This document shows, piece after piece, positions 25,017 through 27,492 of a stretch of DNA of 64,000 nucleotides. The notes under the pieces were generated by a model. It had not been told where the DNA came from. It did no database searches and saw nothing but the letters and a program-made list of their open reading frames with translations. The stretch is taken from the NCBI RefSeq assembly GCF_030553305.1, contig NZ_JARRAH010000001.1:1798001-1862000 (forward strand), given 5' to 3'. Within the stretch, counting starts at the first letter, position 1; each line of letters opens with the position of its first letter. The translations under genes were made by a program, and so were the position numbers. This stretch comes from Halomarina ordinaria (GTDB lineage: Archaea; Halobacteriota; Halobacteria; Halobacteriales; Haloarculaceae).

Positions 25017-25080
25017 CCACACTCCCTGTTCACATCGAGTCGGGGAGACGGCTCACTGCTCACGTCGTTCGCAGGAGAAG

Positions 25081-25154
25081 TCCGCTCTCCCCGATTTGAA
25101 CGGGGGACAAGTCGATCTACAGTCGACTGCTCTGCCAGACTGAGCTAAGAGCGG
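25081..25154 (-). tRNA. tRNA-Tyr (GTA)
   Basis: A 74-nt cloverleaf on the minus strand. Acceptor CCGCTCT pairs with AGAGCGG, discriminator A. D-arm TAGCTCAGTCTGGCAGAGC, anticodon stem GTCGA/TCGAC with loop CTGTAGA (anticodon GTA), T-arm CCCCG-TTCAAAT-CGGGG. The C1-G72 pair is the archaeal tRNA-Tyr identity element. CCA is not encoded and no intron is present. A TATA-like AAGGGTTAAATTCG on the minus strand lies upstream. Confidence 0.97.
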
Positions 25155-25272: not shown

Positions 25273-25950
25273 ATGAGCAAGATAACGTTCCGCGCGGACG
25301 ACGACCTCGTGGCGCGCCTGGAGGGGAGAGACGCCTCCAAGAGCGAGGTCATGCGCGAGGCGCTCCGGGCGTACCTCGACGAGGGGAGCGACGCGCCCGC
25401 GCCGTCGGCGTCCGCCGAGCCCACCGCGTCCGACGCGGGACTCGACCGCGCGGCGCTGGACGCGCTGGTCCGCGAGCGCGTCGACGCGATACTCGCCGAG
25501 CGAAGCGACGACCTCGTCGCGGAGATCGCCGACGCAGTGCTGGCGGAGGTGCGCGCCGGGGGCGGCTACGACGGCCGCCCGGCCGACACGCGGGACGTCA
25601 CGCTCACAATCAACGTCGACGGGGCGACGGCCGTCGACGACCGTAAGACACGCGACGCGGGACGAACGACTGAGCGAGAGACCGAGGCGGAGCGACCCGC
25701 ACGCGGGCGGGAGCGCGACGCACACGACACGAAAGCGGAGCCGACCCGGGCGTCGGAGGGCCGGTCCGACCCGACCTGCGGCCAGTGCGGCGAGGGGCTG
25801 TCCTCGTCGCACGTCTTCTGTCCGAACTGCGGGGAGAAGGCGAACCACCGCGTCTTCTGTGACTGCGGTGACGAGGTCCGCTCGGACTGGAGCTTCTGCC
25901 CGGGATGCGGCCGGAGGACGCCCGCAGCGGACGTCCTCGACCGCCAGTAA
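25273..25950 (+). CDS. cdrL: Ribbon-helix-helix regulator with zinc ribbons (CdrL-like)
   Basis: 225 residues. Residues 1-40 are a ribbon-helix-helix DNA-binding domain (MSKITFRADDDLVARLEGRDASKSEVMREALRAYL). A helical and disordered charged middle follows, then two zinc ribbons in the last 60 residues: CGQCG...CPNCG and CDCG...CPGCG. Lying directly upstream of cdrS-ftsZ2, it matches CdrL (cell division regulator, long) described in haloarchaea. A TATA-like CTTATAG lies about 35 bp before the start. Confidence 0.87.
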   Translation: MSKITFRADDDLVARLEGRDASKSEVMREALRAYLDEGSDAPAPSASAEPTASDAGLDRAALDALVRERVDAILAERSDDLVAEIADAVLAEVRAGGGYDGRPADTRDVTLTINVDGATAVDDRKTRDAGRTTERETEAERPARGRERDAHDTKAEPTRASEGRSDPTCGQCGEGLSSSHVFCPNCGEKANHRVFCDCGDEVRSDWSFCPGCGRRTPAADVLDRQ

Positions 25951-25981: not shown

Positions 25982-26143
25982 GTCTTACGATATACCGAAG
26001 ATTTATTATACACCAGGGTATGCAAACACCTGCGTAAGACGTTCGTCTTACACGTTGGGTTCGGGGGTCGAAACCCCGACCCGTGGTGCGGTTTGGCGTG
26101 TAAGACGCGCGGGCCGGTGTGACACGGTGGCCCGACGTCTTAC
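25982..26143. promoter_or_regulatory. Five-copy GTCTTAC/GTAAGAC operator array before cdrS-ftsZ2
   Basis: The 7-bp motif occurs at 25982-25988 (GTCTTAC), 26034-26040 (GTAAGAC), 26045-26051 (GTCTTAC), 26100-26106 (GTAAGAC) and 26137-26143 (GTCTTAC). Copies 2 and 3 form an 18-bp palindrome with a 4-bp spacer; copies 4 and 5 form a wider inverted pair. A separate GC hairpin (26057-26082; TCGGGG/CCCCGA) lies between the pairs and could terminate the cdrL transcript. These are likely regulator sites, perhaps for CdrL or CdrS (inference). Confidence 0.65.
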
Positions 26144-26166: not shown

Positions 26167-26343
26167 ATGGAGCGTGTGACACTACGGATTCCGAAGCAGC
26201 AGATAGAAGAGGTCGAACGCATGGTCGAGACGGGTGAGTACCCGAATCGAAGCGAGGCCATCCGGGCCGCCGTGCGTGACATGATCAACGAGGAGAACGC
26301 CGACCGCGGGCGTCAGAACAAACGGCCGTGGGCGAGGGCGTAG
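26167..26343 (+). CDS. cdrS: Ribbon-helix-helix cell-division regulator CdrS
   Basis: A 58-residue protein that is almost entirely one ribbon-helix-helix domain: [21 protein letters not shown] strand and helix, then [16 protein letters not shown]. The dimer would insert the paired N-terminal strands in the DNA major groove. CdrS is known in haloarchaea as the regulator co-transcribed with ftsZ2. Its stop codon is directly followed by the ftsZ2 ATG, so translation is coupled. Upstream in-frame starts would add non-conserved sequence through the last operator copy. Confidence 0.92.
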
Positions 26344-27492
26344 ATGCAGGACATCGTCAACTCCGCGCTCGAGAACGCAGAGAAGGAGCAGCGCAAGATG
26401 TCCGACTCGGACGACGACGAGTTCGGCGAACCCCGAATCGTCATCGTCGGCTGCGGTGGCGCGGGTAACAACACCGTCAACCGCCTCTACAACATCGGCG
26501 TCGACGGCGCGGACACCGTCGCCATCAACACCGACAAACAGCACCTCAAGATGATAGAGGCCGACACGAAGATACTCGTCGGCAAGTCCCTGACGGCCGG
26601 TCTCGGCGCCGGCGGCGACCCCGAGATGGGCGAGCGCGCCACCGAGATGGCCCAGGGTACCATCAAGGAGGTGCTCGGCGAGGCGGACCTGGTGTTCGTC
26701 ACCGCCGGCATGGGTGGCGGCACCGGTACCGGCGCCGCGCCCATCGTCGCGAAGATCGCCAAGGAGCAGGGCGCCATCGTCGTCGGCATGGTCTCGACGC
26801 CGTTCAACGTCGAACGCGCCCGCACGGTGAAGGCCGAAGAGGGCCTCGAGAAGCTCCGCAACGAGGCCGACTCCATCATCGTCCTCGACAACAACCGACT
26901 GCTCGACTACGTGCCGAACCTGCCCATCGGCAAGGCCTTCTCCGTGATGGACCAGATCATCGCGGAGACGGTGAAGGGCATCAGCGAGACCATCACCCAG
27001 CCCTCCCTCATCAACCTGGACTACGCGGACATGTCCACCATCATGAACCAGGGCGGCGTCGCGGTGATGCTCGTCGGCGAGACCCAGGACAAGAACAAGA
27101 CCGAGGAAGTGGTCAAGGACGCGATGAACCACCCGCTGCTCGACGTGGACTACCGCGGCGCCTCGGGCGGCCTCGTCCACATCACCGGCGGCCCCGACCT
27201 CACCCTCAAAGAGGCCGAGGGTATCGCCCAGAACATCACCGACCGCCTGGAGGCCAGCGCCAACGTCATCTGGGGCGCGCGCATCCAGGAGGAGTACAAG
27301 GGCAAGGTCCGCGTCATGGCCATCATGACCGGCGTCCAGTCCGCACAGATCCTCGGCCCCACGACCCAGAAGCAGGCCAACGCCTCCCGACAGGCCATCG
27401 AGGACGACGGCCACGAGAACGTCAGTTACGGGGAGACCGACGGCGGCACCTCCCAGCTCGAACAGAACAACGGCCTCGACGTCATCCGGTAA
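26344..27492 (+). CDS. ftsZ2: Tubulin-like cell-division GTPase FtsZ2
   Basis: A 382-residue FtsZ. Nucleotide-binding [16 protein letters not shown] near residue 38, the tubulin signature [13 protein letters not shown] near 120, and the T7 loop region [12 protein letters not shown] with the catalytic acidic residues near 220. The N-terminal extension [19 protein letters not shown] is characteristic of haloarchaeal FtsZ2, which with FtsZ1 builds the midcell ring and is needed for constriction. The gene follows cdrS without a gap. Confidence 0.96.

Follow-up and report, generated by a model that had tools for sequence, protein, structure and literature searches.

The intergenic region between cdrL and cdrS of Halomarina ordinaria carries five exact copies of the 7-bp word GTCTTAC, and our results support the view that they form a genuine regulatory array of the cdrS-ftsZ2 promoter that selection has maintained. 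We consider it on balance probable that the five words are sites for ribbon-helix-helix (RHH) dimers which together form an operator dedicated to cdrS-ftsZ2, that CdrL is its most likely reader, that its occupation represses the operon and that it descends from a CdrS-type array. In the literature searched we found no description of this operator.

The word array and its promoter

The window, that is, the whole stretch of 64,000 nucleotides that was analysed, corresponds to C1:1798001-1862000 of the 3.61-Mb H. ordinaria genome, and its CdrS shows 97% identity to that of Halomarina halobia, the closest named genome found. Three genes of the plus strand surround the array. The first is cdrL (25273-25950), whose product has a copG-type RHH N-terminus, a variable middle and a C-terminal double zinc ribbon (Pfam RHH_1 and DZR above cut-off). 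The second is cdrS (26167-26343), encoding a 58-aa RHH transcription factor (Pfam RHH_1, E=8e-9), and it is followed by the second gene of the operon, ftsZ2 (26344-27492), which encodes a tubulin-family cell-division GTPase (Pfam Tubulin and FtsZ_C). As an earlier note on this DNA had claimed, RHH proteins are therefore encoded on both sides of the array; RHH_1 is above cut-off in both. Shortly before cdrL there is a tRNA-Tyr gene of the minus strand (25080-25154).

The same note had reported five exact words within the 162 bp from 25982 to 26143, and we found all of them in place. The first, s1 (25982-25988, plus strand), precedes the predicted BRE by a few bases and s2 by 52 bp; s2 (26034-26040, minus strand, thus written GTAAGAC) is at the predicted transcription start and s3 (26045-26051, plus strand) follows it after 4 bp; s4 (26100-26106, minus strand, again GTAAGAC) is in the predicted 5' leader, and s5 (26137-26143, plus strand) is just upstream of the cdrS start codon. 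As had also been noticed, s2 and s3 make up an 18-bp palindrome (26034-26051), GTAAGAC GTTC GTCTTAC, with a 7+4+7 build. The word by itself is ordinary in frequency, with 57 copies in the whole genome versus 56 of the reversed control word, but the cluster is not: no other cluster of the word appeared in the whole-genome count, and the Poisson probability of finding five or more words within 162 bp is 5.8e-16 and, corrected for all windows, 1e-11. This count, which the earlier note had proposed as a check, and the Poisson probability rule out chance clustering and bear out the opinion that five copies were unlikely by chance.

Regarding the promoter, when 148 distinct upstream regions are aligned at s2, their profile has a T/A-rich TATA block at -32 to -26 of s2, preceded by a BRE-like CCG-AA. 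In the window this profile gives a predicted core promoter on the plus strand (25995-26009), made up of the BRE CCGAAGA (25995-26001) and the TATA element TTTATTAT (26002-26009), and archaeal promoter geometry predicts a transcription start at about 26031-26034. The s2/s3 pair follows TATA at a distance of around 26-32 bp and is located at the predicted start, whereas the CdrS site of ftsZ1 is upstream of the TATA box. With s2/s3 covering the start and s1 just upstream of the BRE, the array would bracket the pre-initiation complex, which would be a repressor-like placement; s4 and s5, when occupied, would extend the protein complex into the leader. Because s2/s3 would sit on the start and s1 beside the BRE, the array when bound should repress cdrS-ftsZ2 or keep its expression within tight limits, and inhibition is usual for archaeal regulators whose sites are at the promoter or downstream of it (PMC8406309).

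The layout is kept in other species. The distance between s1 and s2 is 51-53 bp in most haloarchaea, most commonly 52 bp, and otherwise around 62-65, 71-75 or 84-85 bp, s1 being often inverted at these other offsets. The 20 distinct offsets have a helical-phase resultant R of 0.67 at an 11-bp period, which is support and not proof of such a period because related species share offsets. The spacer between s2 and s3 is 2-6 bp across the class, usually 4 bp, s4 is found 52-57 bp after s3 where it is present as an exact word, and s5 precedes the ATG of cdrS by 19-32 bp in almost every locus. Between s3 and s4 there is often a GC-rich inverted repeat of no conserved sequence (101 spacers, mean z -2.26); that of the window (26052-26099) reaches only -1.2.

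Conservation of the array and its unit

All of the 111 haloarchaeal loci first examined, 80 of them from named GTDB genomes, had 3-6 exact words within 350 bp before cdrS, and the pattern GTANGAC-N2..6-GTCNTAC, with any centre base, was present in 163 of 168 haloarchaeal loci. When whole genomes were searched, GTAAGAC-N3..6-GTCTTAC was found in 374 of 391 haloarchaeal genomes and was single-copy in all but two of these, while the reversed control pattern gave only a handful of matches in the same search. The conservation upstream of orthologous cdrS genes that the earlier note had wanted checked is thus present at both levels. Outside the class, the operator palindrome occurred in 2 of 242 non-haloarchaeal Halobacteriota genomes, which is below the count of the reversed pattern.

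A cdrS homologue was detected in 390 of the 391 haloarchaeal genomes at E<=0.001, two of these being weak matches that are gone at 1e-10. The exact palindrome is absent in 17 genomes, and CdrS is present in 14 of them; the remaining three (G230, G348 and G362) gave no CdrS match at 1e-10, possibly owing to assembly gaps. We read 13 of those 14 promoters, all except the G285 locus, and every one carries heptad variants: a 2-bp spacer, GTCATAC for s3, GTGAGAC for s2, or direct repeats of GTATGAC/GTAAGAC. A regulon of palindromes was also considered and rejected, since exact palindromes elsewhere in the genomes are at background; with a relaxed centre base each genome gains a further 0-4 matches, for the most part GTACGAC/GTCGTAC and in varied places. 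Haloferacaceae archaeon XH8 (CP132292.1) has two cdrS loci, L064 and L071, one close to either end of the linearised chromosome record, and both have a complete word array of their own.

The unit can be recognised from such variants as well. In the different species the centre base of the GTC-N-TAC heptads is T in 648 cases, A in 50, G in 7 and C in 2. A lone heptad, s1, is found in either orientation, and in three genomes (G014, G313 and G316) the palindrome is replaced by the direct repeats GTATGAC-N3-GTAAGAC-N3-GTATGAC; such orientation flips preserve the heptad and lose the palindrome. Therefore, as the centre base varies, GTC..TAC stays and the orientation is free, the unit is the 7-mer and not the palindrome. 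Calling each word a half-site, as the earlier note did, was probably wrong, because the single 7-mer behaves as a complete heptad. One RHH dimer per heptad would suit 7-mers of free orientation, and by analogy with the omega/ParB arrays of pSM19035 (PMC9499535) each word (GTC-N-TAC, usually GTCTTAC) may be a complete pseudo-palindromic site for one such dimer. The array has the traits of RHH-type operators, namely repeated pseudo-symmetric boxes at a promoter, with s2 and s3 around 11 bp apart and s1 offsets that favour an 11-bp period across species.

Candidate readers of the array

The only reproducible ChIP peak of CdrL-FLAG in Hbt. salinarum was the region upstream of cdrS-ftsZ2 (PMC7439475), and the palindrome, single-copy in all but two of the genomes that have it, accords with this single peak. 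That region and ours share the intergenic position, the genes and one site per genome; the text of that study goes no further than the ChIP peak and says nothing of a motif, of heptads and their spacing, of promoter geometry or of an evolutionary origin. The resolution of that ChIP is around 200 bp and the occupancy of CdrL could be indirect. The cdrL deletion strain carried second-site mutations, so this study gives no sign of the regulation (PMC7439475). At the level of the class the ranges agree, as the operator is at background outside haloarchaea and the RHH part of CdrL is confined to them in the genomes tested; in 37 genomes outside haloarchaea we found no RHH part of CdrL, zinc-ribbon matches only. 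The exception is G007, a complete haloarchaeal chromosome of 2,085,946 bp, in which CdrS is present and s2, s3 and s5 are kept, but neither tblastn nor a profile search of the whole chromosome found CdrL. Six loci without an adjacent cdrL, G007 included, keep s2, s3 and s5, and the genome-wide check for cdrL covers G007 only. Since G007 has the palindrome without CdrL, the persistence of the operator does not strictly depend on CdrL.

The two RHH proteins are difficult to tell apart by their binding residues. The predicted DNA-contact strand of CdrL is K-I-T-F-R, with K, T and R invariant among 147 distinct proteins, and that of CdrS is R-V-T-L-R, with contact residues invariant among 124 distinct proteins. 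The base-contacting residues are much alike (K-T-R vs R-T-R), and specificity therefore cannot be assigned from the protein sequences.

Regarding CdrS, ChIP in Hfx. volcanii with plasmid-borne FLAG-CdrS under the fdx promoter gave 18 sites, among them the targets ftsZ1 and hisB, and a symmetric motif that is mentioned in the text but not printed (PMC8406309). We examined the region upstream of ftsZ1 in 26 genomes, and a conserved GTCNGAC-N4-GTCNGAC just before the TATA box was exact in 19 and degenerate in most of the others; in H. ordinaria this dyad is GTCAGACGGTCGTCAGAC. The dyad occurs 3-6 times in Haloferax genomes, versus zero for the reversed control, and there it marks the hisB promoter besides that of ftsZ1. 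At dacZ the match is degenerate, with only the GTCAGAC half conserved, and for this reason we put the weight on ftsZ1 and hisB as references. From these promoters we infer that CdrS reads GTC-N-GAC. The cdrS operator shares the 7+4+7 build, but one base is changed per heptad (GTCNTAC vs GTCNGAC) and it does not match the motif so derived for CdrS. Around 24 Natrialbaceae-type loci (L258-L286 range) carry an extra GTC(T/A)GAC between s4 and s5, at about -46 from the cdrS start, with the GTCTTAC words unchanged, which suggests that the two heptads are read by different proteins and are not interchangeable.

Both heptad types may also meet at a second promoter. L329 (G000:C1:1544845-1544891, outside the window) is a leaderless gene for a 300-aa protein whose N-terminal part is apparently hydrophobic; its promoter has the CdrS dyad GTCTGACGCTCGTCTGAC before TATA and then GTACGAC-N5-GTAAGAC at the start site, so that it is a candidate for a promoter with both. 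Further GTCNGAC-N4-GTCNGAC dyads are on smaller contigs of the H. ordinaria genome (G000:C2:74444, C2:125206, C3:189999 and C6:25104); one of them precedes, by around 280 bp, an ORF whose N-terminus is P-loop-like, and another is near a ParA-like gene.

The alternative that survives best is autoregulation: CdrS would bind the array and repress the operon that encodes it, with GTCTTAC as a lower-affinity heptad used in number and CdrL as a haloarchaeal co-regulator that joins or modulates the complex. The G007 chromosome, with CdrS and the operator but no CdrL, agrees with this, as does the 7+4+7 build that is identical to the CdrS site; furthermore, outgroups that lack CdrL have heptads of CdrS type at their cdrS promoter, which implies that autoregulation is ancestral, and a few of their arrays mix GTCNGAC and GTCATAC. 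However, we hold this alternative to be rather unlikely. The cdrS promoter is absent from the 18 CdrS ChIP sites of Hfx. volcanii (PMC8406309), although that result could be biased by a tag placed at the N-terminus, next to the strand that contacts DNA, GTCTTAC is more strictly conserved than a tolerated weak site should be (T at the centre in 648 of 707 heptads), and Natrialbaceae keep the two heptads distinct. A CdrS-CdrL heterodimer, considered because GTC and GTA halves are mixed in the heptad, was rejected as the sole reader, as G007 keeps the heptad without CdrL and the CdrS ChIP omits the site. Thus, the claim of the earlier note that both CdrL and CdrS bind the word stands only in part: the RHH family is the best candidate, given the 7+4+7 build and the CdrL peak at this place, whereas the part of CdrS is countered by its ChIP sites and its own word GTCNGAC, and that of CdrL by G007.

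Another regulator, for example a helix-turn-helix dimer, might bind the 18-bp palindrome and leave the single words as auxiliary half-sites; half-sites around one turn apart are also the classic arrangement for such a dimer, and the palindrome persists in G007. We judge this improbable, because the direct repeats of G014, G313 and G316 are awkward for a symmetric dimer, s1 stands alone and occurs in both orientations, the CdrS site shares the build and CdrL is known to occupy the region (PMC7439475). Finally, it is very doubtful that s2/s3 and s4/s5, complementary as they are and with s4 and s5 in the predicted leader, act as stems controlling translation or processing of the cdrS-ftsZ2 mRNA, even though the inverted repeat between s3 and s4 is frequent and post-transcriptional control of ftsZ2 has been suggested (PMC8303175): s1 comes before BRE/TATA and would be missing from the transcript, in nine pairs of neighbouring heptads the consensus is kept but complementarity is lost, three of them being direct repeats, we saw no compensatory changes, the words being either invariant or changed so as to break pairing, and an 11-bp spacing is a property of DNA. 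The direct repeats and the non-complementary pairs in particular disfavour a hairpin. Consequently, we keep CdrL as the most likely reader, with dimers that may assemble cooperatively on the heptads and might thereby give the switch-like output that the earlier note proposed.

Origin of the array and its meaning

In 13 outgroup cdrS-ftsZ operons, which are of methanogen type and lack CdrL, the upstream regions contain 2.00 GTCNGAC per 200 bp where 0.033 are expected, mostly spaced by 11, 22, 33, 44, 55, 66 or 77 bp, and a few of these arrays mix in GTCATAC. The haloarchaeal cdrS operators contain 4.62 GTCNTAC per 200 bp, versus 0.20 expected. The simplest reading of these sequences would be that an ancestral array for CdrS autoregulation was re-lettered in the haloarchaeal ancestor: one base per heptad of the GTC-N-GAC array, G to T in one half, would have changed, and this would separate the cdrS-ftsZ2 promoter from the CdrS regulon. 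We tentatively propose, as a possibility somewhat short of probable, that this one-base switch from GTC-N-GAC to GTC-N-TAC took place when CdrL joined the locus, insulating cdrS-ftsZ2 from CdrS and giving its control to a dedicated regulator with this single target or to a mixed CdrS-CdrL complex reading the asymmetric GTC/GTA heptad. The GTC(T/A)GAC of Natrialbaceae type suggests a heptad that was retained or regained.

As regards other systems, the CdrS sites of Hfx. volcanii (PMC8406309) are similar in that they belong to an RHH protein of the same operon and have a symmetric motif of probable 7+4+7 build. However, those sites are GTC-N-GAC, lie upstream of TATA in an activator-like position and serve a set of genes, whereas the cdrS operator is GTC-N-TAC, lies on the predicted start and is essentially single-copy. 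The omega/ParB heptads of pSM19035 are also arrays of 7-bp sites in either orientation bound by RHH dimers, and their assembly depends on the number of sites (PMC9499535); nevertheless, they are contiguous and form a centromere, while the cdrS words are 4 bp or around 50 bp apart, lie at a cell-division promoter and have a different sequence. Small bacterial RHH repressors such as MetJ, Arc and CopG act on repeated short boxes across a promoter. Their promoters are bacterial and their boxes different, and we claim homology for the RHH fold only.

The control of FtsZ levels in archaea is poorly understood, and the array offers a candidate operator of the FtsZ2 operon that is defined to the base and hardly varies within the whole class. 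GTCNTAC and GTCNGAC would also give a compact contrast of two paralogous RHH specificities, and the outgroup arrays provide an evolutionary hypothesis, in which an ancestral CdrS autoregulatory array may have been handed over.
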